From NCBI RefSeq assembly GCF_964355755.1, contig NC_092673.1:14139001-14203000 (forward strand): a stretch of DNA of 64,000 nt. Reading direction: 5' to 3'. A program made the translations under genes and the position numbers. Positions 1,481 to 53,110 of the stretch are shown one piece after another. Each line of letters begins with the position of its first letter. The stretch's first letter is position 1. The stretch is from Antedon mediterranea. Lineage: Eukaryota > Echinodermata > Crinoidea > Comatulida > Antedonidae. The notes beneath the pieces were generated by a model. It was not told where the DNA came from. It saw only the letters and a program-made list of their open reading frames with translations, and ran no database searches.

Positions 1481-1505
1481 AAGTTGATTTACCCTATTTG
1501 GATGA

Positions 1506-3102: not shown

Positions 3103-3244
3103 ATAATATATATAGTCGAGAGACTACAAAAGGCCCGATGGGCCTGTCGCTGTAGTCCCTCTTTACATTATACAAATAATAATAAACATACAATAGGAAG
3201 TCTGACAAATATGAGAATCGTAATCTCATAGTGTGCGATCATGT

Positions 3245-4780: not shown

Positions 4781-4895
4781 CCGCCGATGGTATATTTATT
4801 TCCTTTTTATCGTTATAGCATTGGCGTTTTGGGAGTTTTGATTATATTGAAAAGCGACGGCGAAACACTGTTGTCGGTCGTCTACTAAATTATAT

Positions 4896-5465
4896 AATAA
4901 CTAGGCTAGGCTAGGCGTAGGCGCGGCCGGACTATACTAAATCACTAAGGGTGGTAGGTATGTATAACAATACAATATTTAGGCTAGACCTCGCGCCTAT
5001 AAATAAAGACCCAATTCCGTTATTAAAAGAAAAGAATGAAACAGCTAGCCTACTACTAGTAACGGGAGTAACTACTACCACTACTAGCCTAGCTAGGCTA
5101 TACTAGGCCTAGGCCTAGATAGAGGCCTAGCCTGTGTAGTATAGTAGAAGTAGGGCCCGGGCCTAGGCCTAGACCTAAACCTAGGCTAGGCTAGCTAGTT
5201 AGGCTAGGCCTACCTCTTGCCTACCTAGCAGGCCTATAGGCTAGGTCTTTACTAGCTAGGCATTGTTAGCTATAGTAGGCAGGCCTAGACTACTAGGCCC
5301 TAGTCCTTCTACTGCTAGCCTTCTAGGCCTATAGGCCCTAGTAGGCTAGTACTAGCCTATTATAATAAATATAGCCTCCCTGGAGACCATAGACTCGGGC
5401 CTAGTAGTAGTACTAGTAGACCTACTAAAGGCCCTAGCCTAGGCTAGCTAGCTAATAATAATTCT
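4896..5465. repeat. CTAG-rich tract inside the left end of the 12-kb transposon
   Basis: TAGGCCTAG-type low complexity similar to 656-965. A matching tract (15540-15985) sits just inside the right TIR, so the tracts are roughly symmetric in the element. Confidence 0.8.
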
Positions 5466-5528
5466 TATTTCAAATCAAATTTTAAGAATTAATTTGTACA
5501 TATTTTTATTTCAGAACAGGCATTTACC

Positions 5529-7259: not shown

Positions 7260-7506
7260 ACCCCTAAACAACCATTTAGTAACTATCTCCGATCAGTGAT
7301 AGTAAACAACCCTAGAAATTAACAAACATTGATTCTAATGAGACTTTTCACCGGTTTCCGTAGGACCACTAGAGTCTGGTTTTCTTTTTTGAAAAAATAT
7401 AATACTACTGTAGCACAAATACAACTTTGTGCAATGGGTAATTTAAATTTACTTTCTATGGACGAGAGAGTTAGTTTTTCTAATATTTATTATAATAATT
7501 GTCTCT

Positions 7507-8358
7507 GTGTATGGTAAGATATTCCAAAAGAACATTCTTTATTATTTTCAACATACTTGTAAGGCAAATTGCCTCTTACTAAACGAAAAGAAAACCAAAG
7601 AAGTAATAATTGATTTTCGAAAAAAATGTACTGCTCTGGCTCCCCTAAAAATTAATAATCAGGAAATTGAATCTGTTGAAAGCTACAAATACCTAGGTGT
7701 GACTGTTGATAACAAATTTAGCTGGGAGAAACACTGTAAAAATACTATAAAAAAAGGAAATACACGACTGTTCTTTCTCAGAAAACTGAGAAATTATGGG
7801 GTAGATAGAACTGTATTAAATTTATTTTACTCTTCGATTGTTGAGAGTGTGCTCACTTTCTGTTGTGTTGCCTGGTTCTGTGGATGTAGAACAGAAGAAA
7901 AAACCAGATTACAACGAATATTAAATAAAGTAGGTAGGATCACAGGATCTAGACATAATTTGGATGACCTTTGCAACAAAATCATAAGAAATAAGGCTAT
8001 GAAAATATGCGACGACTCAAACCACCCTTTAAAGATCAAAAAGACTAAATGTGCTGAGATCGTGCAATAGTAGGGTTATGCGATATTTTAATTCTTTTGT
8101 TCCGTATTCTATTAGACTGTTAAATGATTTTGCATAATTTTTGAAATTTTTGATGTATTGCAGCTTTTTATTTTTTATTTAGTTAATTGTAGTCTTATGT
8201 TCATACTTGTACATTGTTAAATAATATATAGTGTTTTTAAATATTGTAATTAATTTTTTTTATATGAAACGTTTTTATAAATTTTTGTACAATTTTGTGA
8301 AAAGCACTCAAAATATTTTCCTATGTGGACGAAATAAAGTTATCATCATTATCATCAT
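7507..8358 (+). pseudogene. 5'-truncated non-LTR retrotransposon fragment (RT C-terminal part)
   Basis: The open frame to 8070 contains FDFRKK-like text, SVESYKYLGVTVDNKFSW (the post-RT KYLG block), LFFLRKLR, and a VLTFCCVAWFCG block. The frame slips near 8060 and then reads RSCNSRVMRYFNSFVPYSIRLLN to a stop. A ttatcatcattatcatcata tail at about 8339-8358 looks like the simple-repeat 3' end of CR1/L2-type LINEs. The RT active site (YADD) is absent because of 5' truncation. It lies within the 12-kb transposon as a later insertion; target duplications were not identified. Confidence 0.8.
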
Positions 8359-11300
8359 ACTTGCGACAGCTCTCCAATGTTATATTAAGCAGCTTTTTTC
8401 TGTACACATGAAACATTTTAACTGTAAATAAATTTGTTGTTGTTGCTTTAATCTATTGTTTAGTTTTATTTTATATTATAATTTATATTGTTTGAGGTGT
8501 AGCATACAATTGGATAGTGCTTTGCACTCATAACAATTCTCAGGTGTTTATTTAAATAAATACAGTAACATGATTTTTAACAGTTTTTTGGTGTAAGAAC
8601 TCAAATTGTTATGATAGCTATATTAATAACGTACAGTAAACACAGAGCCTTCAAACAAAAGGTAGAGCTGAGCTCATCTAAACTCAATTGTACTGTGGCT
8701 AGAAACTTATACATAAATAAATTTATATTAACAAAATTTGAATGACATGATTTTTTTTTTAGTAAAAACTATATTTGTTGTGAATGTTACAGATTTCCCA
8801 ATGCAAAACAAATACAGAGCTGATCCAAGCTATTTAAAATCGATTGTATTTTGGCTAGATTTGCAACATGCAATTTTAACAGGCAGGGGTGGTCGTAGAG
8901 GTCTATTTTAAGGGTGTTGGCCAAGAAGAGTCCAGCCGCAAAACCACATATTTGGCCCATAGAGGAGCGATGCAAATTTTTTTTAAATTACACCACTAGA
9001 TGGCCGGAAATTAATTAATTAAATTTAATTAGCAATTATAATAAGTACAAATTATTTATTATCAAATCATAATTTTAAAAAGCTAAACAAAAAATAAGAG
9101 GCTGCTGCTATAAATATTTTGAGCAAAACGTTTAATTGTATTATTTTGAAATAAATGCTAAATAAGTCAGTAAAACCACTATAAACTGTATAAACAGTGT
9201 TGCCTAAACAACACTCCAGAAAAAAATATTGAAATTTGCAGAAAGAAGGAATTGCCCAGGCAACACCCCTGCGTCTACCCCTATTACCCACAAATTGATT
9301 TTTATTGCTTCTAAACAAATTTTCAATATATAGATGTAAAAAAAACTAGAAATTAATTTAACTTTGACGAATTATTGTTGATCATTTTTATAATTTTATG
9401 GACATTAATATTTTTAAACATGCACGTATGCGAACATACGATCGGAAAATGTTGATGTATGCCTTCGATCCTATTATACGCTTATTGTGCTGAGTTGTGT
9501 ATAATTATTATATGCCATATACATTAAGTACAGTATATACTGTATATCTATATACCGTGTAGCATTGGTGAAATTACGGACAAACATCATGTTCTAATTT
9601 TTTGGCGTTGATAACATTATCAAAATAAACTTAAATAAATAACAATATCGAAAGATAATGAATTGAGCAATAAAATATAACAATTGGAAGAAAATTTGGC
9701 ATGTAGAAGCGTGGTGCGCGCTCTTTAAAATGTGTATAACTTTGACGAAAGAGATGAAAAAAACTACTTTTTAACTTCAACTGGCCATATGATAACGTTA
9801 CAACATCCGATAGACCTATTTTTTAAATAAATTCATATCTACATTTTACAAGCTCTCATAATAAGTTATAAAAATCAAGGTCAACTTTATTTCAGAAGAG
9901 CTGCAAGGTATTCAAATATCCGTTGTAGGTGAAATTCCGTAATCAGCGTTATTTAAATTTTTAGACATGATGAAATCATCTAAATGGAAATGTTGGCAAC
10001 TCATGAGTAACATAATTGGTTGAGGTAGAATATATTAAAAATTAAAAGAAAATCGATCACAGATAAGCGAGATGCCCTCTGTTCAATATGATTGTCTAAG
10101 ATGAAACGAAAAAAATCCAATTTTTTTATTTATGTGGCCAAATGATGACATATAATTTTGTACGTCTAATATGTACATGATGCATTCATAACTCCAACTC
10201 ATTGGCTTCCACCATCAGTTTAAAAAAATTGGTAGTAAGCGTCCATTCTGAAGAGTTATATTTATATATTATAAGGCCTTATTTTTTACCGTTTTTGACA
10301 CTTTTGTGCAATTAATGTGCGCATTTTGTCATTTTTTAACCTGCTCGTATAGCGTTATTTAAAGTCGGAATAGACTCAAATTTGGTGAATGTAATTTTGA
10401 GCTTTTTAAATTTTTAACGCGCGATTTCACTATTAATTTTTATTTTATTTGCTATTCTTTTTACCCTTGACATGCAGTTTATGTATAGTGAATTTTATTG
10501 ACATGTGATTACAAGTAATATAGAGATATGATCGATAATGTGATTTCACAAAATTGCGTATAAATTACGTCACAGATGAGTGAACTTTTTGAGATAATTG
10601 TTACACAAAATAGTGTACAGAAACAATAAAAAGAAAAAAAATAACAATAAAGATTTCATACAATAATAATAGATAATCATTTTATTCTAAATGATCACCT
10701 AAAAATATAATTACACACGTACATGATTCGTATAGTATACTAATAATATTATTTGTCGCATCATCTTCCAAAATTGACCTTTGTGACATTGTTTTTGCAG
10801 CGGTATACTTTCAATAAGTTCAAACAAACAACAAAATAAGACAGACTCAAAAATACTTTTAATGCAGTGTTTAGTTGTTTCAAATACAATCACAAACTTT
10901 AAAAAGTATGCAAAACTCCATGAAGGTACCATACTATAAATACGTTATAAAATCAGTTTTTAATCTAATAACAACAAGAAGCGTGTTAAGTAAAATTTCT
11001 GTGGAATTATTTAACATACCCATAAGTGCAAAGAAATAGCTTATTATAGAGGCTGTTCTTTTATTCTAAACCAAATTTTTTTTTTAAATAGAAATGAATC
11101 CTTTGGTTTATAAGTAACCCAAACATTACCAAAGTATAGTTTATATGAATTTCAAGTATAAAAGTACAAGAAAAAAAAAATGTGGTACATGGTATTAAAT
11201 GAATGAAAGTAACAAGCATTGAAGATATTTAACATGAAATTATCTTTATACATTTAAGATGTAGTAGAAAATCAATTTCTATACATACAAATCAAGTATT

Positions 11301-11760
11301 GAAGTCTGACATAAATGAGCAATTCATAATATGATTTTTAGGGAAAAAAACTCTCAATATTATATAATTATTTAAATGTGATTTAAGAATAAAACCCTCC
11401 ATCATTAAAACATTCATGTAACTATGTTAAAACTGGTGTTCAAAATATAACTACCACTGTATGTGATAAAAATAACTTTATGATTGTGTTTCCCAACAAT
11501 AATATTAAACAAAAATTGTAAAAAAAAATGTAGCCACTAATTGCAAAATATTTTTTTTTAAATTGGAATTAAGACTTTGAATTAAGCTTGATTAAAACAA
11601 TAAAAACATATTAACAATAACAAAACTGAATGTCATTATTGTATTAAACATGTTAGCACTTAATTACTAACATTTTAAAGCTATCATTGCTACAATAAAA
11701 ACTAAATTGTCTAAAGTCTGAATGCTCAAGCATTCAAAGAAACATAACAATTGAATAAGA
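8359..11760. other. Long AT-rich stretch without recognisable genes
   Basis: Interior of the 12-kb transposon. AT-rich with many poly-A/T runs. Short open frames here resemble nothing I know and lack coding character. This may be the original spacer between the two convergent genes, or contain old insertions. Confidence 0.5.
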
Positions 11761-13740
11761 TCAGCTATCAACAAGATTTTTGGTTTGAGAAAAGAACTGT
11801 GTAAAGCTGGTACAAAATTTTAGCATACATATTAATTCTTGGCATGACATCTCATTAATTGCTTCCCGTAACCACTCTTTCTCTTTATGAACATTCTCCA
11901 GAGTATCCCACTCTACTATGTCTACCATCAACTCGGGTGTCATATCCACATGTTTCATTAGGAAAATAGAACACATTTCATTGCATCTTTCAATGAATGG
12001 CATAAGTTCTGTATACTGAAGGCCATCTCTTATGCTTCAGTATCACTTTCTTTTGCATCAGATGTAGGACTAAGAGGTAATAAATAGTCACTAATGTTAC
12101 TGTTAGTTGTACTAACAATATCTCGGGAAGGCAACAAGTACACCCTCTTGTTTCCATATAAACGATGCAAAAGCTGTGCATTCCTTTCTTGATCATCAGT
12201 TAAACGTAGTTTAGTTAATCGTGAACCCATTACAATCATAAACTCAAACCTAGAAGATATAATTTATAAAATGTAGATGACAAAATGTTATGTTATTTAC
12301 TGAAGGGAGGTGAAAGCTGTACACAAGGCATTCTTTGTTTTCTGACTTAAAACGCTCAGCACCTAAATATCAAGGTACAGTTCATTTATTATTATAGTTA
12401 TTTATTAAAAACATTCAGAATATGTACTGGTGTGTATATTGTAATGACCAATCAAAAATTATTCTGATCTTAACTGTACATCATATCATTGCACACAGGT
12501 TAACAAACTTCTTATGTTGGTACTATCACATTATATTGAAAGCTCAAAGTTAAGATTTTGCAAGGCATTTTGTTTAATCTTTTGAAGATGAAAAGGAAGC
12601 TGGAATATTGTTTCTATGAATCAGTCATGCTTGTAACCAATCAGAATCCCATTTTCGCTGAGCAAAAACTTATTCAAAATATTTTTTTGCAAATCAAACA
12701 TTGCTTGTAAACTAAATTTAACATTTTAGATTTCACTACAGTTACAGTACTTTATTTTAAATTTAAATAAATCAAAAGAACTTACTTATTTGGATCACTT
12801 TCAATTTCCAATATATCTGAAAACATATTTTCCATTTTTTTGTAAACTTCTTTTGCTGTCATGCATTGTTCTAGTTCAACATGATGATAAACATGACCTG
12901 TAGTGTTAAAAGTAAATTTCATGATACATAATCAGTAAATATGATTTCTCATGTAGACAAAAACAAAAATAGGCCATGTTGAACCTTGAAAATGTTTATC
13001 AACTTTCAAAAGATTGAAAAAAAAAATCAATTTATTTTTTAGTCAAGACACTGTTCTATACTTTTTATATATTTATTCATGAATTGAGGAATTTTGTTTA
13101 AAAAAGTTCATTACTTAAATGTTTAGACTATAAATACATTTTTTTAAGTGAATGTGCCAAAAAAGTTTCTGAAACAAAAATTGGTAAGAAACAATATTTT
13201 TAGTCGCGTGTACGCGACTCTATAGTTCACTATGTCGGTCGGTCGGTCTGTCTGTTGGTCCGGTATCACTATGCGTTTTAGCACGCGACTTATGGCTGTT
13301 GGCCTTGTTTTTGTTAGTATTGAATAAAAAAACTGAAATACATAGTAGATTAGGATAATAATCATAATAAATAACTAACCTTTTTTATCTAGTTTACCAT
13401 AGTAATTTGCCCTGGGTATTTGATCGCTTTGTGATGTATCCAATAAAATGACTTCTTTTAAGTAGAAGTAATTTTGGTTTTGCCTAGAATTAGAGCATGA
13501 ACAAGACCTTGAATTATCTTGTGTTCTTCTTCTGGTGGTATTTCTTGATCTTGTTGATGGTGTGGTAAATAAACTATTCATTTCACTATTTAGATCTTGG
13601 TGTGGTCTTCTTGTAGTATTTCTATGTGCTTGAGGTTGAGCATTATTTGGAGTTACATTCTGAATGATTGTTAAAAAATTGTCATTTGATAGTAGGGATT
13701 TGGTTAAATTATCTATATCAGTTGTTGAAAGCGATGCCAT
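11761..13740 (-). pseudogene. Three-exon gene with a downstream HECT-like (G2E3-type) segment, second gene of the 12-kb transposon
   Basis: The start ATG at 13740 has a good context (aaaaccATGG). Exon 1 (13740-13380) is Ser/Thr/Asn/Arg-rich; exon 2 is 12897-12786; exon 3 is 12249-12030. All junctions are GT-AG and the phases agree, giving 230 residues: exon 2 has ELEQCMTAKEVYKKME, exon 3 FEFMIVMGSRLTKLRL and LLHRLYGNKRVYLLPSR. In another frame, 12003-11761 reads MPFIERCNEMC, then TPELMVDIVEW and LREAINEMSCQELICMLKFCT, which I compare with HECT-like C-terminal regions of G2E3-type proteins. The frame change near 12030 and the absence of any catalytic Cys region suggest a truncated or broken gene. 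If functional it would be a ubiquitin-ligase-like accessory protein; that role is inference. It converges on the integrase gene within the same TIRs. Confidence 0.7.
13190..13305. repeat. Short dispersed-type repeat with palindromic start
   Basis: Begins with the near-palindrome agtcgcgtgtacgcgact, followed by a GGTC/GGTCTGTC run and a second gcacgcgact. It lies in the first intron of the minus-strand gene. The GTCGGTCGGTCGGTCTGTCTG-type run is typical of dispersed invertebrate repeats. Confidence 0.5.
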
Positions 13741-13870
13741 GGTTTTATTTTTACAGTTAGTTATCTGAAACAAAACAAATTATTATTAATAATGAAATTC
13801 ATCAATACAGATACAGTACTGAATTAGCTATCCTACTACACAGTACTAGTGGTGAAGCTCATATTTTGTT

Positions 13871-14262
13871 ACCTCCGCCAAGGAGGTTATGTTTTCACCC
13901 CTGTATGTTTGGGTGCGTGGGTGCGCGTGTGTGTGTGTGTGTGTGTTTGTGTGTGTGTCTGTGAACAGCCTGAAGGCCACAGTTTTTATCCGATTCCCAC
14001 CAAATTTGGACACAATGATCTATGCCCCAAAAGCTCGGACGAAAAAAAAAATATATAAAAATAAAAAAAACTCTCAGCGGGATTTGAACCAGGGACCTTA
14101 ACTGTGAGAGGCTGGATACATAACCATTACACCAAACTCTCATCCACAACTTTGTCGTGTGCAGTTAGCCTATTTACACTTTAGAACTAATAAAAAAATA
14201 GTTAAAAAAAAAACATTTTCGGAGGGAATTTTATGTAGGGGAATTTTACAGTAGGCGGAGGT
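13871..14262. mobile_element. Short inverted-repeat element (MITE/SINE-like) with tRNA-like core
   Basis: Ends acctccgcc and ggcggaggt form a 9-bp inverted repeat. The interior has a (GT)n run at about 13925-13960, a cacagtttttatccgattcc block, a tRNA-like segment and A-rich spacers. I recognise the start and end (gccaaggaggttatgttttc, aggtttgtactctcggag) as a widespread invertebrate/fish repeat pattern. No ORF. It sits upstream of the 13740 gene start, in the gap between it and the 14.3-15.5 kb LINE. Confidence 0.6.
14071..14141 (-). other. tRNA-like sequence (A and B box), degenerate
   Basis: On minus it contains TGGTGTAATGGTTA (A-box-like) and GGTTCAAATCC (B-box-like) about 40 bases apart, as in tRNA genes. 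The two ends do not pair to form an acceptor stem and the T stem is poor, so it is not a functional tRNA. It more likely reflects a tRNA-derived pol III promoter in a SINE-like repeat. Confidence 0.6.
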
Positions 14263-14344
14263 TTGTACTCTCGGAGTACCCTCTAGTTTAGATATATTTT
14301 AAAGGATTATTCTACATTCACATTCTCATTCTTTCTTGGAGATC

Positions 14345-15535
14345 CAAGAAACATTTATTATATATGGCCTTTGGCCCAAATAATATACAATGTAATACAA
14401 TATTAAATAAATATCAGTTGAGTGCGTTTAAAAATTCTGTTCTACGTTTAAATGAAAAAAATAAATATTTTCCAAGTTTAACAATAAGATCAGTATTTGT
14501 GGCAGACATAAGATAAATATATTTTAATTTAGTTGGGTTGTTTGTATAAAAGGAAAACATATATTTAGTTCTAATATCTGAATAAAATGGACAAACTAAA
14601 GTGAAATGATATTCATCTTCAATTGATTGTAAAGCACATAATTTGCATAATCTTTCATTTCTATTTATACAATTCCATCTTCCTTTTTCAATTTCTAATT
14701 CTAAAATTCCTAGTCGTATCTTAGTCATAATTTGTCTATGTTTGTAATTTGTTACTTTCGTTAGATATTCTTCAATTCCAAACTTATATTTAACGTGCTT
14801 GTAATATTGAAGCTTAGAGTGTATCCTAGTATCTTCGTAGAATTTCTGTCGTTCAATATCTGTAAGCCTTTGTTTAAAATTTGAAATAAAAGTATATATA
14901 TTATTAACCTGTTGTGAGTACCATATGTTACCAAATCCATTTATGCATAGTATTTGTTTTACGTCATTGGCCCAACATTGCTCATTTCTTTGAGCTTTTC
15001 TATATTGAAAATCATAACATTGTTTAATAAATTTGTCATTATCCATTTGGATTACTCTAAGCCAATAACGAATTATATTAATGATAATTTGAATTTGGAT
15101 AGTGAATCTTCCACATTCTCCTCTCACTGCAACACTTGGTGCAGAATTACCTATTCCTAGAATGTATTTACAGAATCTTAGATGAACTTTCTCTAATACT
15201 GATATATCATTTAAACCCCATATTTCGCTACCATAAAGTAAGATTGGCATAATCTTAACATCAAATATATGGTTCCATATATTAACTTGGAGGTTACCAA
15301 AACGTCTATGGGTCAATCCTTTTAATGTGAACAAAGCCTTATTAGCTTGTTGACAATTGTATTCTTTGGCTTTATTCCAATTACCATTTGAGTTGAAAAC
15401 AACTCCTAAATATTTAAAGGATTTGACAATGTCAACTGTATTTCCATTGTAATTCCATTTTTCAAATTTGAATTCTACATTACAAGAAGAAGAATAGAAT
15501 ATCGCATTTTGTTATTTCAGTAGTAAAATATTGAT
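14345..15535 (-). pseudogene. 5'-truncated non-LTR retrotransposon (post-RT region with zinc-ribbon-like motif)
   Basis: One undamaged frame of about 370 codons runs from about 15520 to TGA/TAA near 14414. It has FKYLGVVFNSNGNW, LLYGSEIWG, VHLRFCKYILGI and, near the end, CKLCALQSIEDEYHFTLVC, a C-x2-C...H-x4-C zinc-binding-like motif common at LINE ORF2 C-termini. The RT catalytic part is missing (5' truncation near 15535, where a TAA occurs in frame). The 3' flank has ttgggccaaaggccatatat followed by AATAAA-like text. The open frame suggests a relatively recent insertion into the 12-kb transposon. Confidence 0.82.
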
Positions 15536-15539
15536 TGTT

Positions 15540-15985
15540 TTACCCAGGTCTAGTAGGGCTAGCTTACAACTAGCTGGGCTACTACTACTAGGCTGGGCCA
15601 TACCCTGCAGGTTTGGCTAGCCTAACACCAGCCCTACTGCCGTTATCAACTCCAAATGTGTTATTACTAACTATATCATGAATAGCAAATCTTGGATTTA
15701 GGCTTTAAGTAGGCCTCATAAGTAGGCTCAGGTCTGACCCTTATAAAATGTATAAACAAATAAATCCTTTTTTAAATTGATGACAGGTACAGTAAACGCT
15801 GACACTTAAGCTGCGTGATGTAGGCATTTATTAGCTAGTTTATGCGGTTTGCCTAGTTAGGCCTAGGCGGCGCCTATATAATAGGCCTATGCCTTGGCCT
15901 ACTAGTTAGTAGACTAGCTAGGCTAGCTAGGCCCTGTACTGTTGTAGCTGTACTAGGCTAGGCCTAGTAGTAGTAGGCCCTATAC
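15540..15985. repeat. CTAG-rich tract inside the right end of the 12-kb transposon
   Basis: TAGGCCTAG/CTAGCTAGG low complexity, counterpart of the 4896-5465 tract. Confidence 0.8.
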
Positions 15986-16210
15986 TGGTTTACAGCTCTA
16001 AGGAATGGGCTACTTACATACTGTACTGTGTAGGCCTGCCTACCTCAACAATATGATGACACTGACAGTTGACTATAGTATAGATAGCCCTAATCAACGA
16101 TTAAAAGAAGTATGGGTATGCATTCCAGATTCCATCCAAACATGTGGTGCATGCTCGTCTCACTTGCTGAATACCATGAGGGTGCGTAGAGGTTATTCGC
16201 AGGCGGTGGC

Positions 16211-16536
16211 AGGCCGCCGGTCATCTAGCCATTCTAGACGATAAACCCCTTTCGAGAAATGGTATGGTCTTCACGCTTGATTAGAGATCTCTAACCAAGC
16301 GTTACAAGTGTACATTCCTTGTTACAACTACATTTTAAAAGTGTACAACTACATTTTAAAAGTGTACAACTACATTTTACAAATGTACAACTACGTTTTA
16401 CAATTACAAACATGCATTTTACAAATACACACACATTTTTAGGTTTACAAATACATTTTGCAATTACACACACACACATTTAAATGTACACATACATTTT
16501 TCAGCTACACACTTTTGCTGCTTATGGCGCCCCATA
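16211..16536 (-). repeat. Right terminal inverted repeat of the 12-kb transposon
   Basis: Reverse complement of 4453-4780. It ends GGCGCCCCATA at 16536, followed directly by the target duplication CAAATC (16537-16542). It has the same GAGATCTC site and two to three copies of the 22-bp unit. Confidence 0.9.
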
Positions 16537-27564: not shown

Positions 27565-27666
27565 AAGTCGACGTGACATAACCAACTTGGTGTATAGTAA
27601 ACGAAGAAAAACAATGGAAGATAAATGTGATTAAATGATAAGTCTGACTTTCTGTTCATCTACCAG

Positions 27667-29410
27667 TCAGAGTTTCAAAAGCAACTATTGAAACGATATG
27701 GGAACGAAGTTTGCTTGTTAGATGCCACATACCGAACAACGCGGTACGCTATTCCACTATTTTTCATCTGTGTGAAAACAAATGTAGGATATAGTGTTGT
27801 TGCCACATTTTCTACAATACTTGAAGATCACCTCACTATTTCAAAGGCACTTGCTATAATAAAAGAGTGGAATCCTCAGTGGAATCCTCAGTGGAATCCT
27901 CAGTGGAATCCTCCTTTTTTCATGGTAGACAACAGTGAAGCAGAAATAAAGGCAATTGAGAAGACATTTAAAGGTAAGTAATACGATATAAAGTTTGCGG
28001 TATAACATCAAGTGTAGTTCTGACAAGTTTATCCAATATCGAAATTGAGTTAACAACAACAATATAACGAATAGTTAAAGCACTCTTACTTAACTTACTA
28101 TTCATGATGTTTTGGTTTTTTTAGAATGCAGAATTTACTTATGCGACTTTCATAGGGAGCAAGCGTGGATTCGTTGGGTTAAAGGCAGGTAAAAATGGCC
28201 TCAATCACTCAAGTGATGCTGTTCTTAGCTTATTAAGAAACATTGCAAAATCTGAGTCTGTGGACGTCTTTGGTGAATCTGTAAAGAAGCTTCAATCAAG
28301 TACATATTGGAAATCCAACTTAGCCTTCAGATATTGGATTTCACGTGTGTGGTTAAAGAATGCAGATGTAAGTTAATAATTCTAATATAATAACAATTTT
28401 TGTTATCAAGTAAACAAGGTATAACCGGAACTCTGTATTGTGGTTAATAACCATGATTTACAAGAAAATACATCAGGAAGAGGTGTCCTTTGTCATGTTT
28501 TGGTTTTTGATTTGTTAATGTATTGATTTTGTATTCCAGTTTAAGTATACTCACTTGCGAGTCATAATATTATTGTGGAACAGTATACAATTGTTATAAA
28601 TACTTCTATATTCGCATTATAGAAATGGGTGTGGTGTTATCGTCTCAATCAATTTGGTCTTAAAGTCAATACTAATAATGGCATTGAAAGGCATTTCTTA
28701 TAACCCTGTAGATACATCAGAAGTAATATCACGGCATCATTGGAGTATCGACAATACAGCTCAGTCCTTCCAAACTTCTTAAAGAATCGACCAAAGCAAT
28801 TTCTTAATCACTGTCGAAAACGGTTGCCAGTTAAAGATGAGATGCAGGCTGCCATAAGTGAAACCGAAAATGGATCCTTCAAAGTACCCAGCTTCACTTC
28901 ATCTACTGCAGATTATATTGTAAGCCTTGGTAATGACGATACTATGCCGTCGTCATACACACTGACCATGCAAACACCTCCTAGCAGTTGTGATGTTCCA
29001 CCCGGAAAGTACATGGGAAAATCTACCAGAGTAGAACCGGAATCATCCACTGTTTACGCTGGATGAAGAGTGTGGCAGCATTCCAGAAATTGAAGACGAC
29101 ACGGATATAGGTGACTCAAATGTCAGCGAAATTATCTCTCCTCCTGAAGACATCTCTCCTCCTGAAGACAGTTTAAGTAATAATGACCTTAAACTGTCGG
29201 AAAATATCTGAAGAGAAACTGACAAAATTCGCTCCATGTCATATCTCAACATTCCGGTAGATGTCCTCACCACAGCGACGCAAACACTTGAAGAGATACG
29301 TAAGAGTATGTGGGCTGCATTACCTACAGAAAGTGGTCTTGCAAGAAAACCCAACCGTTAAAAATACAGAAAAGTTGCCATTCGGGATAAGCAGCGGCAC
29401 CAGGACCGGT
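27667..29410 (+). pseudogene. MULE-type transposase gene, multi-exon, broken
   Basis: Exon 27667-27973 follows an acceptor (catctaccag) and reads LLKRYGNEVCLLDATYRTTR, LFFICVKTNVGYSVVATF and PFFMVDNSEAEI, the MULE core with the D of LLDATY and the D of VDN. Exon 28125-28367 joins in phase (E-CRIYLCDFHREQAW) and then frameshifts near 28190. Exon 28623 onward has KWVWCYR and NTNNGIERHF (third acidic position), a stop, and the LPNFLKNRPKQFLNHCRKR block. Introns have GT-AG borders. Such proteins bind transposon ends and cut DNA in the nucleus. The SWIM-like C-terminal segment is poorly preserved. Further exons (29781-30142) and a PHD exon follow in line. One stop and at least one frameshift mark it as inactive. 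Confidence 0.87.
27868..27912 (+). repeat. In-frame 12-bp tandem expansion (tggaatcctcag) in the MULE exon
   Basis: Three exact copies plus a partial fourth encode WNPQ repeated, within the EWNP...FFM segment just before the catalytic VDN. The length change is a multiple of three and keeps the frame. Confidence 0.95.
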
Positions 29411-32695: not shown

Positions 32696-33370
32696 TTAAT
32701 CTTCAAGATCGCTCACATCACTGCAATCTGAAAAGTCTTCGTATTCATTATGTGTAAACAGTTCCTGGAAATCAGTGGGCATCACTGTCTCAATCCATTT
32801 AGGCTCCATTTGTTCGTTCCATCCATCCATTGTGTGTACTGTTGTTGACAAAATCATTGACGTCTGCTGAGCAAACTTCATTACTAAAGAATGGCAAAGT
32901 ATATGAAACTCAAGGGTCATATCTTGCTTGATTTACACTTTTCCCCTTCACTCCATACATTGGTGAAACATTTTGCTTTTGATTCCAGAAGCTTCCAGCA
33001 GGTACGTTTTCCTTTCCGAACGAAAGCGGAGTTATACTTGTTACCTGTGAAAGCATGGAATCCAATAAGGGATGATTTCTGCGCTTTTGTTAAATCAATG
33101 TCACTCAATTTCAGTACATTTCGGTATTTCCCAGTGTTTGTATCAATAATTACCCTCTGCCCATCATCTATGAAATGAGATAGTGAAATGACTGGAATGT
33201 CAAAGTCTCCAGAATGGGAACGAATTATTGCTACGCCTTGATTGTTATTTGTTAAAGCATGCTTTGCATGCTGATGTTTAATGCACCAGACTACACCACT
33301 AATTTATCTAGAACACTTCCACTCATCAGCAAACAAATCACAGATTTGAATGGACAAGAGTGGAGGTAGG
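32696..33370 (-). pseudogene. FEN1/XPG-like (PIN-type) nuclease-family gene, decayed copy 2
   Basis: On minus, from 33345: CDLFADEW, a stop, then CIKHQHAKHAL, VAIIRSHSGDFDIPVISL, IDTNTGKYRN, and SSLIGFHAFTGNKYNSAFVR followed by KGKRTCWKLL. The end (32920-32696) has GWNEQMEPKWIE and an acidic C-terminus. It is homologous to copy 1 but belongs to a different subfamily, with SGD-x-DI and FHAFTG-N-D motifs. The usual TGND is TGNK here (about 33038), so a key acidic residue is lost, besides the stop and a frameshift near 32920. It is divergent to the 33469-34774 gene, about 100 bases apart. Family placement is confident; nuclease function is inference. Confidence 0.8.
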
Positions 33371-43178: not shown

Positions 43179-44514
43179 TGAAAATCCTCCTGATGCAAAC
43201 AAGAATGCAAATGCTTTTGCGGAGCTTGTTCAATGTCTAGATGACAGGTCGCTATCACTGATTATTCGTGATGCTAAAGATGATGGGCGTAAAGCGCTAA
43301 CGATCCTTCACAATTATGTTCTTTGAAGATGAAAGCAATTGAGACTACCACTGATTATGTAATTCGAGCAGAAACAATTGGAGTGTCGTTAAAAACAGCA
43401 GGGGAAGTTGTCAGTGACTCACTGCTAATGTCAATGGTACTGAAAGGACTACCAGAAGAATATGATACGCTAAACACAGTGATAACACAAAAAGAAAATC
43501 AGCCAACATTATCAGAATTTAAGACCTCTCTCAAAAATTATGAAGAGAATTTAAAGGCCAGCAAAATGGTGAGTACCAACGTTAACGACTCCGTTATGAA
43601 AACTCATCCAATTAAACAACTAATGTGCTACGAATGTAAAAAGCCTGGACATAAAGCAAAAGACTGTTACAGAAACAAACAAAGTAACTCACAGCGATGG
43701 TGTAAGACATGTAAAACGTCAACACACAATACGCGTGAATGTAGAAGGAAGAACGCTAGTGTAGATTATTGTTATACAACAATACCCCAAAATTATCAAG
43801 ATGCAATGAAATCGCCTGATGCAAAAGAATGGGCAAAAGCAATGGAAGATGAAATTGGTTCTCTACAGGAGAACAACACTTTCACTTTAACAAAATTGAC
43901 CGACGGTAAGAAACCAGTGGGGGGCCGTTGGGTCTATGCTAAAAAGGAAGATGCCGAAGGGCAAACCAAATTTAAAGCGCGATATGTAGCAAAGGGCTAC
44001 ACACAAATCAAGGGTGTTGATTATACAGTAATGATACATTTTCCCCTACTGCTAGCATGACATCGGTTCGCGTTCTAATGCAAATTGCGGCGCAACATAA
44101 TTTGGTACTGCACCAAATGGATGTCAAAACAGCCTATTTAAATGCCCCTATTGATAAAGATATCTATATTGAGCAACCAGAAGGTTTTGAATCAAAATCT
44201 GATTCCGGGGAAAGGCTAGTTCTAAAGAACTAAGAAGACGAGTAAAAGTACCGTCATAGTTTTAATTTGGGTCGACGATTTAATAATAGCTGCAAGCGAT
44301 AACAATGTTTTAAACGAGTTTAAATGTATGATGGAAACAAAATCCGAGATCCACCCCTCGCGAAAAAAAATTTGAACTTCGTTCTACCGACAATGTAAAT
44401 GAGACAAATTATTGTGAAATGATCGGCAGCCTTATTTATGCCCAAACATGTACCAGACCCGATATAAGTTTTGTAGTAAATAGTAATTATCTCAACATTT
44501 AGCTAACCCTACTA
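43179..44514 (+). pseudogene. Ty1/copia polyprotein with gag fused to RT (protease and integrase deleted)
   Basis: 43179-43325 reads the gag start (FAELVQCLDDRSLSLIIRD). The frame 43323-44060 continues with LLMSMVLKGLPEEYDTL, a CCHC knuckle (CYECKKPGHKAKDC), a second Cys/His motif (WCKTCKTSTHNTREC), then runs straight into the start of RT (YQDAMKSPDAKEWAKAMEDE, KFKARYVAKGYTQ), so protease and integrase are missing while the frame is kept. Later frames give MDVKTAYLNAPI, VLIWVDDLIIAAS (the catalytic YVDD block, W for Y) and GSLIYAQTCTRPDI. It is cut at 44514 by the foldback-like element and resumes at 51822. Several frameshifts. Confidence 0.88.
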
Positions 44515-47500
44515 ATAGACCGGGCGCCCGGAAGATTTATTCATGTGAAAAGATACAAAAGGTTTGATGATGTAGTTAGGTGCGTATTAGGGCGAGATGC
44601 AATATTCGACATTGCTGCCGGGTCACAGCCTGTACATAAGGCCTGTGGGGATCATAACATAGGGGGGTAAAAATGCATTTATTTATGTGAAGCGATACAA
44701 GGATAAACTTTTTTGGATATCATTCGCAGTGGGCTACTAATGATTACATCACCAATGACAGCAACTTTATCCTGTACGGGGCGCCAAACAGCAACATTTT
44801 AGGGCCACGCCCAAATGGGTTTATTCATGTGAAGCGATACAAGGTTGAATCTTTTTTTAATGGCAGCAGTATATATTGGGGATGACAAAAACACCAATGA
44901 CAGCAACTTTATCCTGTACATAAGCTCAGACAGCAGCCCTAAAGGTCCGCAGTTTCCCCCTATTCGGCTATATACTCGGCGCGTATGTCGTCTATTGGCG
45001 TTCATCTGAGTTAGAAATACGTGATACGGACTCGGACTGACAATAAATACACAGTAGAATGCTAAAACAATAAATAAAGAGAGCAGTTGTTTCCTGTACC
45101 AAATCATCAAACATCAAACTCTTAGGAACTCGCCCAAAATGGGTTTATCCATGAAGTGTGTAATCATTTTTGAAAAAATTGTTTTTTTTTTCACTTTATC
45201 CGGTACACAGCAGCTCAAATACCCGAGGCTCCATTCGTGATCAACAATGTTGATAATACAAACGCATTCACGATAACGAGTGACATTTATTTTATAATTG
45301 AAATATATCTTTATTTTGGAATAATAAATAACACCAACAAAAACACTTAAAATAACCAACAGCAGATTTGTATTTTAGGGTATCATTTTGAACAATCAAT
45401 ATTATATCAAAATCATTATTTCACAACACAAAATAATATAATTTAAGAATATTTTTCACATAAACTAATTAATAATTACACTCATAATGATTATTGTGCT
45501 TTATTATTATAACAACTCGATTTAAATATTGTTTTAATTACACACTAGACACTAGTGATATGTCTATATGAAAAAAGGCAACGAAATCTAAATTTGCAAC
45601 ATTTTTTAACATAACATAACATAATAGTACAGTAAATAATAGTTCGAATTCAACATAATCACTTAGAGAATTGGTAAGGTATAGATTAGACTATCGATTG
45701 CACACTATTACTGTATTTTTAATTCAATTTAAATTTAAAAAAAAGTAACAGTTTTCATGTGAATTAGACTGATAAAAACCAACAAATAACTTAATCTGCC
45801 AACATTTTAAACATCATTACTTGTCCATAATGGATCGACTACTGTATCGATTACTGCACATTGTTTTACTTTAACTGAAACAAAGTCAAATTTTTAATTG
45901 TTACTGTACTAATATTAGACAGTGATATCTGATAAAAGGCAACATTAATTAATATTAATAATACTGAACCAAATTAAATATCGTTACTTATCCACAATGG
46001 ATCGACTACTGTATTGGTTATTGCACATTATTTACTAACTAACATAAGAAAGGGATATCTGATAAAACGCAACAAACTGAATCGAATTAAATATCGTTAC
46101 TTATCCATAATGGATCGACTACTGTATTGATTACTGCACATTATTTTACTATAACTGCCCAAGTCAAATTTAAAATTGTTACTGTACTAACATTAGACAG
46201 TGATATCTGATAAAATGCAACATACTCAGGACCAAATTAAATATCGTTAACTTATCCATAATGGATCGACTACTGTATCGATTATTGCACATTATTTAAC
46301 TATAACTTTTTAACTATTAATCTTTTCAATACACAATTTGTAAACAACTTTTGCATACTAGATAATGATCAGCATTGTGATTTGGATACAATAGATTGTC
46401 TTACCAACTTTGAATGTGAACCCTTTGTGATGCCTGAGGTATTTTATGCCCTCTCACAGTTAAATGTATCCAAATCACCAGGACCTGATTGTTTGCTTCC
46501 AATATTCTTAAAGTCATGTAAGGCACAATTGGCTAATGTTTTATGTACATTCTTTAATTTAAATGTACAAAAAGGTATTTTACCAAAACAATGGAAGGAT
46601 GCAAATGTTGTACCTATTTTCAAAAGAAATGGAAAACCCAAAGACGAAATGAAAAGCTATCGTCCAGTGTCTTTAACTCCCATAATTTGTAAGATTATTG
46701 AGAAATTGCTTTGTTATCGCTTAAGGGAATATCTAGAATATAATAATATCCTTTCAGAAAATCAGTTTGGGTTTAGACAAATGTATAGTACTGAACTTTT
46801 ACTTTCAAAGGTTTTTCATTCATGGGCACAGAGCTTAGAACTTAAAGGCTGTAAAAATATTGATATTATTTTTCTTGATTTTTCGTCTGCATTTGATAAG
46901 GTGTCTCATAAAAGATTAATTAAGAAACTTAATAACTGTGGCATTGGTGGGAACACTAATGCATGGATTACAGATTTTCTTTCAAATAGACGCCAAAGGG
47001 TTATTTACAGAGGAGAAAAGTCAGAGTGGGTAAATGTTACTTCAGGGGTACCACAAGGGTCAGTTTTGGACCCTCTTTTATTTTTGATTTACATAAGTGA
47101 TATTGTAAATAATATTTCTTCTTCACTTTTTCAATTTGCTGATGATCACACATTATCCCGTCCTATTTATAACATGATTGTAAATTACTTCAAAAGGATT
47201 TAGATTCAATTGCTAAATGGGCAAATGTAAACAAACTTCCCTTAAATCCTGTCAAATGCGCCGTAATGCATGTTACAAGATGTAAAGATATAGTTAACTG
47301 GGATTATACCATAGAATCAGACAATATTCCTAAAGTTACAGAATTCAAATTTCTAGGTGTTTATGTAAATAGTTCGTTGTCTTGTCATACACAAGTTAAT
47401 TATATATGTTGTAAAGCAAGCAGATTGCTTGGTTTAATTTCAAAATGTAGTAAAAATATGTCCTGGTTAGCTATGTTGAACTTATACAAAGCTCTATTAC

Positions 47501-48648
47501 TTCCAGTGGTTACCTACTGTTGTTCAATGTGGGCACCATTTGAGAAATGACATATTAATAGAATAGAAAGTATACAAAGGAAAGCAACAAGGATAATAAT
47601 GTTTAGAAAGGAAGGTTCCTAGGAAACATCTTATTTTCATAGGCTGAAAGTGCTTGAATTATTATCTATTGATGACTTGTTTAAATTACATAGACTTTCA
47701 TTAGGATTTAAGTTGTTGAAAGGTTACTGCCCCCATTCTTTCAATGAGTATATTAAAACTAGTGAAAGATGTCCGGGTAGACTTTTACGTTGGAATTCGA
47801 AAGGCAATACTTTTCATAATTCTGTATTTCCTAGACTATGGGAGCAAATACCAAATGACATAAAAGATTCACAAACAATTTCAATATTTAAGGCTGCTCT
47901 AACAAAACACTATATTTCATGTTATGTATAGTTTATTTGTATTTTTCTTGTATATGGTTTTATCTTAACTGTTTGTATTGTATGGAGTGAGTGCAGAATC
48001 TGTTTGGGCTTTAGCCTATTCTCATTCCTGGTTATTTTTACATTGATGACCGAATAAATATTATTATTATTATTATTATTATAACTGCCCAAGTCAATTT
48101 TAAAATTGTTACTGTACTAACATTATACAGTGATATCTGATAAAATGCAACATACTCAGGACCAAATTAAATATCGTTACTTATCCATAATGGATCGACT
48201 ACTGTATCGATTATTGCACATTATTTTACTATAACTGCCGAAGTAAAATTTAAAATTGTTACTGTACTAACATTATACAGTGATATCTGATAAAAGGCAA
48301 CATTAATAATACTGGACAAAATTAAATATCGTTACTTATCCACAATGGATCGACTACTGTATTGATTATTGCACATTATTTTTCTCTAACTGAACCCAGG
48401 TCGAATATTTTACATGCAGTGTAACTACCGACACACTGTAAAAGCACAATTGAGCAAAGACATCGAGGTTACTGGCTGTATGCATTAAATAACTGAATAT
48501 TGTACATTCAACATATTCCATTGTTACTAGCTAAAAAGAATACACGATATAATAAAACCAATAGGGGCTATTGTATTTCTTTTTACATGATTTGTGACAG
48601 CGTCATTTATAAATTTGATTATATCACACTGTAATGATACTGGATTCT
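44515..48648 (+). repeat. Left arm of the foldback-like element (contains a LINE)
   Basis: Outer part: a roughly 140-bp unit with attcatgtgaagcgatacaa (44535, 44675, 44820 and a weaker copy at 45143) and atgacagcaactttatcctg. Inner part (45820-46300 and 48085-48390): a roughly 160-bp unit with tccataatggatcgactact and gacagtgatatctgataaaa. Open frames here are non-coding and appear mirrored in the other arm. Confidence 0.85.
46308..48079 (+). mobile_element. 5'-truncated CR1/Jockey-type LINE with 7-bp target duplication
   Basis: Flanked by TATAACT (46301-46307 and 48080-48086), it ends in an (ATT)n tail. The RT frame from about 46320 to 47200 includes SKSPGPDCLLPIFLKS, VVPIFKRNGKPKDEMKSYRP, the motif A text IIFLDFSSAFDKVSHKRL, SGVPQGSVLDPLLFLIYISD and FADD (catalytic C motif). 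Then a frameshift near 47190 leads to FKFLGVYVNSSLSCH and VVTYCCSMWAPFEK, a stop at about 47550, and a last frame to 47931 with VFPRLWEQIPNDI. The endonuclease domain is missing. It interrupts one subrepeat of the foldback arm, so it inserted after that element formed. Confidence 0.92.
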
Positions 48649-48789
48649 ATGGATCAAATAGTTCAGTATTTACATTTGATATATTATACAATATTTACTT
48701 CAAAACTGTCAAATGTTTTATGTAAACGATTAAAAACTATTAAATCAGCCGTAATGCATAATATTTTTCGTTTATCTATTCGTCATCAT

Positions 48790-49240
48790 CACAGTCACTT
48801 TCACTATCATCACTCCAAGGTTGGTCATCATCGATTTCAGCTTCAAAATCTATTATTTCAAGTTCTTCATCATCAGTTTGTTCCAATATTCCTGCATCAG
48901 TATCGTCAAGAACTTTGTTCCGAGTGTGGATCACTAGTCAACGCATCTGGTAGAGCATTTCCATCAAACCATTTCGGTACATACCTTCCATCACCATTAT
49001 CAACCCATCCATAGTTTAATGGGCGTAGGTTTTGTGTTGGCTGAGGAGTATGAGCGTGTCTCCACATAAGATACATAATTTGCCCTCAACAGATGCTGAG
49101 TGATTGTGATTTCACATGGTGGCAATGACGAACAGTTGATCTTCTTGACTTTCTTCTTTCCAGTTGTCATTTTGCGAAACGATTGGTACCTGGCCTCATT
49201 AATACTGCTTTTAAACCCATATCTTGCATACATAGGCAGT
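48790..49240 (-). pseudogene. FEN1/XPG-like nuclease-family gene, copy 3 (C-terminal part only)
   Basis: On minus: SLPMYARYGFKSSINEARYQ, KKVKKINCSSLPPCEITITQ, HLLRANYVSY, then after a frame slip LWRHAHTPQPTQNLRP, GWVDNGDGRYVPKWFDG and an acidic tail (about 48900-48790). LPPC...L..H..R.NYV...W......GW....G...P.W is the C-terminal pattern of the same family as the copies at 1506-3102 and 32696-33370. The nuclease-like motifs themselves are absent. It occupies the unique centre of the foldback-like element, reading out through the left arm. Confidence 0.7.
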
Positions 49241-49301
49241 GACTGCGGGTTTGTTCATCCTGTCACCACAAAGCGATCGCAATGACTTGCCTTTGCGGTA
49301 A

Positions 49302-51821
49302 AATCCAGTATCATTACAGTGTGATTATAATCAAATTCATAAATGACGCTGTCACAAATCATGTAAAAAGAAATCCAATAGCCCCTATTGGTTTTATTAT
49401 ATCGTGTATTCTGTTCAGCTAGTAATGGAATATGAGGAATGTACAATATTTAGTTATTTAATGCATACAGCCAGTAAACTCGATGTCTTTGCTCATTGTG
49501 CTTTTACAGTATGTCGGTATGCAAAATATTCGACCTGGGTTCAGTTGGAGATAAGTAACGATATTTAATTTGGTCCAGTGTTATTAAAGTAACAATTTTA
49601 AATTTGACTTGGGCTGAGTTGGGCAGTAAAATAATGTGCAATAATCGATACAGTAGTCGATCCATTATGGATAAGTAACGATATTTAATTTGGTCCTGAG
49701 TATGTTGCAGATACCACTGTCTAATGTTTGTACAGTAACAATTTTAAATTTGACTTGGGCAATTATAGTAAAATAATGTGCAGTAATCAATACAGTAGTC
49801 GATCCATTATGGTTAAGTAACGATATTTAATTCGATTCAGTTTGTTGCGTTTTATCAGATATCACTTTCTTATGTTAGTTAGTAAAATAATGTGCAATAA
49901 TCAATACAGTAGTCGATCCATTGTGGATAAGTAACGATATTTAATTTGGTTCAGTATTATTAATATTAATTAATGTTGCCTTTTATCAGATATCACTGTC
50001 TAATATTAGTACAGTAGCAATTAAAAGTTTGACTTTGGTTCAGTTAAAGTAAAACAATGTACAGTAATCGATACAATAGTCGATCCATTATGGACAAGTA
50101 CGTAACGACGTTTAAAATGTTGGCAGATTAAGTTTTTTGTTGGTTTTTATCAGTCTAATTCACATGAAAACGGTTACTTTTTTTAGTAATAGTGTGCAAT
50201 CGATAGTCTAATCTATACCTTACCAATTCTCTAAGTGATTATGTTGAATTCGAACTATTATTTACTGTACTATTATGTTATGTTATGTTAAAAAATGTTG
50301 CAAATTTAGATTTCGTTGCCTTTTTTCATATAGACATATCACTAGTGTCTAGTGTGTAATTAAAACAATATTTAAATCGAGTTGTTATAATAATAAAGCA
50401 CAATAATCGGTACCGGTGTCGATCATTATGAGTGTAATTATTAATTAGTTTATCTGAAAAATATTCTTAAATTATATTATTTTGTGTTGTGAAATAATGA
50501 TTTTGATATGATATTGATTGTTCAAAATGATACCCTAAAATACAAATCTGCTGTTGGTTATTTTAAGTGTTTTTGTTGGTGTTATTTATTATTCCAAAAT
50601 AAAGATATATTTCAATTATAAAATAAAAGTCACTCGTTATCGTGAATGCGTTTGTATTATTTATGTTGAATTCGAACTATTATTTACTGTACTATTATGT
50701 TATGTTATGTTAAAAAATGTTGCAAATTTAGATTTCGTTGCCTTTTTTCATATAGACATATCACTAGTGTCTAGTGTGTAATTAAAACAATATTTAAATC
50801 GAGTTGTTATAATAATAAAGCACAATAATCGGTACCGGTGTCGATCATTATGAGTGTAATTATTAATTAGTTTATCTGAAAAATATTCTTAAATTATATT
50901 ATTTTGTGTTGTGAAATAATGATTTTGATATGATATTGATTGTTCAAAATGATACCCTAAAATACAAATCTGCTGTTGGTTATTTTAAGTGTTTTTGTTG
51001 GTGTTATTTATTATTCCAAAATAAAGATATATTTCAATTATAAAATAAAAGTCACTCGTTATCGTGAATGCGTTTGTATTATCAACATTGTTGATCACGA
51101 ATGGAGCCTCGGGTATTTGAGCTGCTGTGTACCGGATAAAGTGAAAAAAAAAAACAATTTTTTTCAAAAATGATTACACACTTCATGGATAAACCCATTT
51201 TGGGCGAGTTCCTAAGAGTTTGATGTTTGATGTTTGGTACAGGAAACAACTGCTCTCTTTATTTATTGTTTTAGCATTCTACTGTGTATTTATTGTCAGT
51301 CCGAGTCCGTATCACGTATTTCTAACTCAGATGAACGCCAATAGACGACATACGCGCCGAGTATATAGCCGAATAGGGGGAAACTGCGGACCTTTAGGGC
51401 TGCTGTCTGAGCTTATGTACAGGATAAAGTTGCTGTCATTGGTGTTTTTGTCATCCCCAATATATACTGCTGCCATTAAAAAAAGATTCAACCTTGTATC
51501 GCTTCACATGAATAAACCCATTTGGGCGTGGCCCTAAAATTTTGCTGTTTGGCGCCCCGTACAGGATAAAGTTGCTGTCATTGGTGATGTAATCATTAGT
51601 AGCCCACTGCGAATGATATCCAAAAAAGTTTATCCTTGTATCACTTCACATGAATAAATGCATTTTTACCCCCCTATGTTATGATCCCCACAGGCCCTAT
51701 GTACAGGCTGTGACCCGGCAGCAATATCGAATATTGCATCTCGCCCTAATACGCACCTAACTACATCATCAAACCTTTTGTATCTTTTCACATGAATAAA
51801 TCTTCCGGGCGCCCGGTCTAT
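49302..51821 (-). repeat. Right arm of the foldback-like element
   Basis: Reverse complement of the left arm, including the mirrored segment 51220-51537 (equal to 44799-45110) and inner subrepeats with agtagtcgatccattatgga at about 49657, 49797, 49912 and 50079. It contains a 422-bp tandem duplication not present in the left arm. Confidence 0.85.
50241..51084 (+). repeat. 422-bp tandem duplication in the right arm
   Basis: Two consecutive copies (50241-50662, 50663-about 51084) that appear identical by eye, each starting atgttgaattcgaactatta and ending gaatgcgtttgtatta. The left arm has a single copy, so the duplication arose after the arms formed. Confidence 0.92.
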
Positions 51822-51930
51822 AAGGAAGTTGCATATAGCGACGCAGATTGGGCATCCTCGCTTGATGACAGGCGAAGCACGACGGGTTACTGTTTCAGTA
51901 TGACCGAAGAAGATATACTGAAAATGTATT
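51822..51930 (+). pseudogene. Copia pol continued (start of RNase H)
   Basis: Immediately right of the foldback-like element the frame reads KEVAYSDADWASSLDDRRST, then TGYCFSMTEE, the copia RNase H start, and is lost at about 51915. It is the continuation of 43179-44514. Confidence 0.9.
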
Positions 51931-53110
51931 AATTTGGAACGATAATAACATTCATTTATTCATTCATTTTATTGTTCCACAAGATATCACAAGACAAGAC
52001 AAAGAAAAAAATAAAAAAACCTGGTTAATTATTTGTTTATGTGTGGAAACTTAAATAAGCCAAATACATCACATTGTACATGGTAACGTAAATTGCTTTC
52101 TAAAAAAAAAAAAAAAAAAACCCAAACAGATTTGATTGAATATAAATAGAAGGAAAAGTAAGAAATAAATTCCATAGTAACAAACTTTAATAAATTAAAA
52201 ATTAATTAAAATTAATGTTTGTGATAATTTAATGTTTAAAGTTAAATTATTCCATAAAAATGGTCCGTTAAAAATGAAAGAATTTTTCCTGAGGGCTATA
52301 GTGTACTTTTCATAAATAAAATGTTTCCGGGGGTAGATGACCTGGTCTTATAAGGATGAAGCTAAACTAAACACTGTAAACAACTAGTTGAAATGAGAAG
52401 GGAGTTGGTTATTAATCCTTTATCCTACGATTTTACAATGGAATAATGGAAGATTCCGAACCGAAACGCCGATTTATCCTTGAACATTTTAAATCACTCC
52501 GTTTCGATAATTTCTTTTCGATTTTACGGTAATATATAGTATATTTACTCTAAGCATAGTTTACATCAACCATTTGGACTTTTTCCAGGCTTCTTATGAC
52601 ATTTTTAAGGATAAATAAGCGATTTTAAAGGCCGGACCAGTTTTGGCCTAGCCGGACCTGTTTTAGAGGTTGTTTCAACGCCAAAATCAATCCAACTGGA
52701 TCAGTTTTGGCCCCGGACCAATTTTCGCGTTACAGATACAGCATATTCGAAAAACTTGAATATTAAACATATGATCAGACATGCTTGGTTTATTTAAGCT
52801 GTTTGCAAGCACTCCATGGCTTCAATTAAATAGCAGTTTAAAATGTAAACAAATTTACATAATTATAATTATTAATGAAACTAAAAAAGATAAAGATATT
52901 AAAAAGTATATATATTTATTTATTTATTTATTTATTTATTTTAATATATCCACAAATCACAGAAAAGAAACTGAATTGCTTGGGATTTAAGTTGTTAAAT
53001 CTTTATATATTATTATTATTTTTATTTAAAATTCTGGTAACGGTTGACTTTGGCTAATGGCTCAACATATTTTTCTGGATTTCGAAGAACCATATTGTGA
53101 GCTGTGTTAT
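51931..53110. other. Non-coding, possible LINE 3' tail, microsatellites
   Basis: 51950-51975 is (TTCA)n-like followed by tattgttccaca, which on minus resembles a LINE 3' end with an AATAAA signal. An A19 run lies near 52103-52121 and an ATTT microsatellite at about 52911-52941. No coding region recognised. Confidence 0.45.

Follow-up and report, generated by a model that had tools for sequence, protein, structure and literature searches.

A recently amplified foldback transposon family in Antedon mediterranea, very probably descended from a deleted founder of a DDE-like/FEN1-XPG fusion transposon

The stretch of DNA analysed here, referred to as the window, comprises 64,000 nucleotides of the crinoid Antedon mediterranea (contig NC_092673.1, positions 14,139,001 to 14,203,000) and holds a non-autonomous foldback transposon copy (Table 1). 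Long inverted arms built of tandem subrepeats, the structural feature of foldback elements, meet around a unique centre with the broken C-terminal part of a FEN1/XPG-like nuclease gene. The insertion target of the element is, judged from its Pfam matches at 43293-44060 (RVT_2, E 4.6e-13; Retrotran_gag_2, E 1.4e-11), a decayed copia element. The terminal sequences TAGACCGGGCGCCCGG and CCGGGCGCCCGGTCTA recur in sister copies, and the 12-bp palindrome CCGGGCGCCCGG is found at both ends. The terminus itself consists of TAGA plus this palindrome and thus lies 4 bp further outward, as set by the 3-bp target duplications of the sister copies. An initial annotation of the window had described a foldback-like element, a candidate mobile system, at 44515..51821 with terminal 12-bp palindromes, inverted arms of about 2.4 kb, two subrepeat classes of about 140 and 160 bp and about 650 bp of unique central DNA encoding a FEN1/XPG-like C-terminus. 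The structure, palindromes, arms, subrepeat classes and centre all hold, and the coordinates were nearly exact.

Table 1. Positions of the foldback element, its parts and its insertion site in the window
Feature	Position	Strand	Remarks
Whole element, 7,305 bp, non-autonomous foldback transposon copy	44516..51820	.	Ends common to sister copies
Target duplication TAA, left copy	44513..44515	+	
Target duplication TAA, right copy	51821..51823	+	
Decayed copia element, left flank of the insertion	43293..44512	+	Continues 51824-51950; beyond the Pfam matches judged by eye
Left inverted arm, outer portion, before the LINE	44516..46308	+	
Outer subrepeats, 142-bp period	44671..44919	+	Core TGACAGCAACTTTATCCTGTA at +241 and +383 from the end
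Inner tandem subrepeats, spacing ~113-167 bp, families D1 and D5	45784..46297	+	Continued 48144-48381; mirrored 49618-50117
Long interspersed nuclear element (LINE; RVT_1) with (ATT)n tail and TATAACT duplication	46309..48082	+	
Left inverted arm, inner portion, after the LINE	48083..48649	+	
Central unique DNA, 649 bp	48650..49298	-	
Frameshifted remnant, C-terminal part of a FEN1/XPG-like nuclease	48776..49250	-	
Right inverted arm, 2,522 bp	49299..51820	-	
422-bp tandem duplication in the right arm, two identical copies	50239..51082	+	Units 50239-50660 and 50661-51082

As the initial annotation had proposed, the genome (354,431,138 bases on 18 contigs) was searched with the arm end, and insertion sites were inspected for target duplications. 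From 169 first-look candidates 40 matches were scored, all of them at least 98% identical, so that at least 40 ends were recovered. Twenty stretches covering part of these ends were compared, and 16 of them have two inverted ends, the other four (L019, L024, L025 and L026) a single complete one. Target duplications were counted in the two-ended copies only, 17 including the window element, which range from 990 to 7,836 bp; extrapolation was needed for the left end of L022 and for the outermost bases of L015, L016 and L028. At the TAGACC boundary, 10 of the 17 copies are flanked by a perfect duplication of 3 bp, while 3-bp matches at the other eight offsets occur in only 0 or 1 of them. The TA of the terminus accounts for the 2-bp match that 14 of the 17 show at one offset, and a 4-bp duplication at the TAGACC boundary occurs in none. 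Over 6,907 bp, L009 is 99.97% identical to L022, which is located on another contig between different flanks. The window element belongs to a non-autonomous foldback family that has recently been amplified to many copies, which bears out the mobility proposed for it. Practically no weight can be given to an assembly artefact or segmental inverted duplication: one 422-bp unit of the right arm is indeed doubled at 100% identity, but for the element as a whole this explanation is refuted by the 17 two-ended copies in different surroundings, 10 of them with target duplications. The identical 422-bp units contrast with the rest of their arm, where divergence reaches several per cent, and the tandem pair belongs to the window copy only, with none in the other 20 copies or stretches compared; it could be a very recent duplication or an assembly slip.

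The left arm measures 2,360 bp if the LINE is left out. The best minus-strand self-match of the arms scores 1,975 bits, compared to at most 41 bits in 20 locally shuffled copies, and the arms are therefore far beyond chance. The outer units start at 44671 and 44813, and these 142-bp repeats are candidate transposase-binding repeats. Unit numbers differ between the left and right arm, and the arm matches also differ among family copies, so that arm length and unit number are variable, as in foldback elements. When the LINE and one of the two 422-bp units are excluded, the two arms differ at 10 positions in the outer 1,200 aligned columns and at 36 in the inner 872; the outer arms are therefore more homogenised or of younger age. 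At their inner ends (48630-48649 and 49299-49318), both arms hold the edge of the coding remnant, reading N-D-T-G-F, and therefore seem to have been extended by inverted copying as far as the deletion breakpoint described below.

The left arm also contains a LINE that, like the 422-bp duplication and the copia target, had gone unremarked in the initial annotation (RVT_1, E 6.8e-29 in Pfam), with TATAACT repeats flanking both junctions. It is present at one shared left-arm site in four of the 17 two-ended copies: in the window element, whole in L009 and L022 (94.8% identity), and with its first 822 bp in L010 (98.4%). It was not found in the remaining 17 copies or stretches compared. A late insertion private to the window copy is thereby ruled out. 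Since the LINE is common in place to sister copies, it entered an ancestor and has moved inside the element: a retrotransposon is carried here as cargo by a DNA transposon, and foldback arms tolerate a cargo of 1.8 kb.

The reading frame of the central remnant is broken by frameshifts, its weak leading match reaches 49312 inside the inner end of the right arm, and a Pfam scan assigned it to no family. Such a nuclease scrap is present in 13 of the 17 two-ended copies; it is absent from L013, L014, L017 and L021 and from the four single-ended stretches. Its start was measured on an 865-residue piece of the protein of the full-length relative L029, in which the last catalytic Asp is residue 661. 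In 11 of the 13 copies the alignable scrap starts at residue 663, two residues past this Asp. It starts at residue 697 in L027; in L023 the match starts at 654, with leading residues unlike the family. No part of the metal-binding core is credibly alignable in the 13 copies, nor is any catalytic residue, and no copy shows a match to either of the two upstream L029 pieces. The shared scrap start and the unmatched upstream pieces therefore point to a single deletion, preceding the spread of the family, by which the DDE-like region and the metal-binding residues were lost. It follows for this family that the nuclease is not needed in cis for its spread. We consider it very unlikely that the short C-terminus was kept for a function, such as that of a small protein binding or blocking its full-length counterpart. 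Its retention in 13 of 17 copies and the stop-free stretches of 110-152 codons that overlap it in several copies could be read in this way, but in the window copy, as in many others, it is disrupted by frameshifts and stops, and retention follows from descent from one founder.

With P0010 as query 121 matches were listed, and the open frames among them include ones of 1,555 (twice), 1,547, 1,524, 1,396, 1,372, 1,360, 1,248 and 1,247 (twice) residues; two of these long frames have stops in the matched part. Six full-length loci were read, namely L029 (together with L031), L030, L033, L034, L035 and L036. L029 and L031 together form an element of 8,148 bp that has the same terminus as the foldback family, arms of 569 bp at 97% identity and a 3-bp duplication, CAT, around it. 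The coding region of this element consists of three open pieces with one in-frame TAA between the second and the third. TTTATTCATGTGAA is located at +21 in the arms of both the window element and L029, and TTTATCCTGTA at +251 and +393 in the former compared to +250 and +392 in the latter. The two arms have 31 11-mers in common, while shuffled sequences gave a mean of 0.2 and a maximum of 4. L030 has an intact frame of 1,555 amino acids and arms of ~873 bp. In L031, the right flank of the L029 element, an arylsulfatase-like exon recognised by eye begins ~0.44 kb beyond the element.

The arms of the other full-length loci measure 530 bp in L033, 27 bp in L034 and ~101 bp in L035, and in the stretch read of L036 no inverted arms were found; arms longer than 500 bp thus occur in three of the six loci. 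L033 to L036 grade from 530-bp arms to none detectable, with tandem units near one side of the gene. These grades are possibly stages of foldback formation.

The six-way alignment of the full-length proteins shows an upstream DDE-like region with the motifs WDNxD..., TxDxAxxxK...RLGxFH and NYAR...DxTIEQTxN. L033 departs from the consensus at the E of the D..D..E-like motifs; the L029 row covers the E part only, and likely counterparts of the first two motifs are present in the second L029 piece. The only credible Pfam match in the upstream part is DUF6589, with 19.2 bits below the cut-off of 27, and we found no mention of DUF6589 in the open-licence literature. A predicted structure aimed at the transposase end (P0062) reached a mean predicted local distance difference test score (pLDDT) of 64, with residues 1-91 below 50, and was uninformative. 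The downstream part contains D1132, D1174, E1275/E1276, D1278, D1303, D1305 and D1363 (L030 numbering), invariant in six of six proteins, which by their order we take to correspond to the FEN1 metal-binding acids. The predicted structure of a relative has a FEN1-type fold of the FEN1/XPG superfamily, and this model supports that the central scrap belongs to a family with a FEN1/XPG-type fold. In the PDB sequence profile search four of seven matches (E 0.0015-0.01) were designed proteins of beta-trefoil type, with ~40-47 residues matched, and were judged to be chance. By tblastn no relative was found in viral and prokaryotic contig collections, and an exact match to the terminus is absent from the viral contigs.

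The foldback family, recently amplified, can be tied to a transposase-nuclease fusion in the same genome by its ends, its subterminal repeats, its target duplications and a founder breakpoint. We propose that the family very probably descends from a deleted founder of a DDE-like/FEN1-XPG fusion transposon, whose arms grew and which spread with its mobility supplied in trans. The ancestor would have been a full-length DNA transposon whose protein joined a DDE-like transposase to a C-terminal FEN1/XPG-type nuclease. A deletion would then have removed everything upstream of about residue 663 of the L029-type piece, including the DDE region and the metal-binding residues of the nuclease. The inverted arms of the deleted element would have grown and the founder spread, one sub-lineage gaining the LINE in its left arm and carrying it along. 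We infer that the family is moved in trans by a fusion protein from a full-length relative, for instance L029: this protein would recognise the shared terminus and the subterminal 142-bp repeats as its binding sites and, with the DDE-like part as catalyst, insert the element with a 3-bp staggered duplication. The arms may lengthen and shorten by unequal exchange and slippage of tandem units, and the nuclease may trim flaps in end processing.

Several observations weigh against this proposal. The L029 copy with its in-frame stop may be inactive or dead, and since the arm match between the window element and L029 is confined to the outer 424 bp, at 72%, a copy closer to the family may be the true driver. 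The DDE fold is read from motifs together with the sub-threshold match to DUF6589. The predicted fold of the nuclease is of FEN1 type as stated above, but none of 17 nuclease-family proteins matches the XPG or FEN family in Pfam, the PDB search retrieved no FEN1 chain, and Foldseek taken alone gave no match at E <= 0.001, the best being plastid exonuclease 1 (E 0.041). Finally, seven of the 17 copies have no perfect target duplication; the ends are changed or extrapolated in L015, L016, L022 and L028, and intact or nearly intact in L011, L021 and L023.

The initial annotation regarded the nuclease as the enzyme of an element that extrudes giant hairpins. Mobilisation by the nuclease itself, which would cut the extruded arm hairpins as a flap or hairpin nuclease without any transposase, appears highly improbable. 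Foldback arms do lie beside members of the nuclease superfamily at two sites of the window (44516-51820 and 1088-3567), and half of the six full-length loci read have the long arms described above. However, the family amplified after loss of the active site, the full-length proteins also contain DDE-like motifs, and L034 to L036 have the nuclease with short arms or none found. The 3-bp duplications are typical of DDE-type staggered insertion. Since the same-ended full-length relative has a DDE-like region fused to the nuclease, ordinary DDE transposition in trans is the simpler reading. The annotation had named an unrelated recognised transposase in intact copies as evidence against its view, and half of this was borne out: a transposase-like region is present in the full-length relatives, but it is fused to the nuclease and hence not unrelated. 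There is also little to recommend the idea that another transposase, for example of Mutator type, moves the arms and that the nuclease scrap is a captured passenger. The copies do carry other cargo, the LINE, but 8-, 9- or 10-bp duplications as in Mutator-type foldbacks were found in none of the 17 copies at nine offsets, and L029 holds the full-length gene within the same terminus, subterminal repeats and a 3-bp duplication.

Other features of the window include a second foldback-like structure at 1088-3567, with arms (1088-1466 and 3261-3567) of ~160-bp tandem subrepeats. The arms enclose a broken gene (1512-2755, minus strand) from a different subgroup of the nuclease superfamily, with a Cys-rich tail. 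A third member of the superfamily at 32696-33303 (minus strand) lies without arms in its vicinity; in place of the SSDTDVL and TGCD motifs it has SHSGDFD and TGNK, so that its catalytic acids look lost. A 12-kb stretch (4453-16536) is enclosed by 334-bp inverted repeats of 95.5% identity, each of which contains 21-bp tandem units and starts near GGGGCGCCATAAGCAGC; within it, the open frame 6390-7259 is integrase-like by eye. The open frame at 27631-27981 presumably resembles a MULE-type transposase core.

The nuclease part of the fusion protein shares the predicted fold of the FEN1, XPG, EXO1 and XRN nucleases and the order of their conserved acids. It differs from them in that it has no profile match, is fused behind a transposase-like region and has a C-terminal tail of its own. 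Among foldback elements, Tetris of Drosophila virilis is similar to the window family in having modular arms with tandem units, in being non-autonomous and in sharing its ends with other elements (PMC4079207, accessible part). According to the same part of that source, foldbacks seem mostly Mutator-derived, with exceptions, and Tetris has no known autonomous partner; for Tetris and the Mutator-type foldbacks, duplications of 8-10 bp are given, compared to 3 bp in the window family, and a Mutator origin is suggested. Galileo of Drosophila, a foldback-like element of the P superfamily, has long, internally repetitive arms of variable length, as the window family does, in copies ranging from nearly complete to arms only (PMC3573991, accessible part), and its subrepeats hold extra transposase-binding sites (PMC3688188, accessible part). 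Galileo is thus the precedent both for arm subrepeats with extra transposase sites and for arm dynamism. However, Galileo has a THAP/P transposase, and at E <= 10 Pfam matched neither a THAP domain nor a P transposase in the L030 protein or the L029 pieces.

In the accessible parts of the open-licence literature we found no foldback family tied to a transposase-FEN1 fusion. It is rather doubtful, although conceivable, that the DDE-like/FEN1 fusion is a distinct transposition machine, with a nuclease that trims or resolves strand flaps at the ends and whose activity both favours and feeds long foldback arms, and with a superfamily that repeatedly spawns its own foldback families. If this were true, the foldbacks of the transposase-FEN1 superfamily would have arisen independently of the Mutator and P sources recognised to date. 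The nuclease of the AcademX lineage of Academ is of XPG type. For AcademX elements, target duplications of 3 or 4 bp and an encoded nuclease are described (PMC10045372, accessible part). In agreement with this, 3-bp duplications flank 10 of the 17 family copies and L029, and the full-length relative encodes a nuclease of which the window copy keeps the tail only. Long foldback arms and a founder-deleted non-autonomous family, in contrast, are unmentioned for AcademX in the accessible part of PMC10045372. Judged by these described features, the full-length elements and the foldback family are probably AcademX, and to call them an undescribed mobile system, as the initial annotation did, is too strong. 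The window family offers a concrete system in which to study the part played by a FEN1-type nuclease in transposition and the causes of giant-arm growth in some elements.

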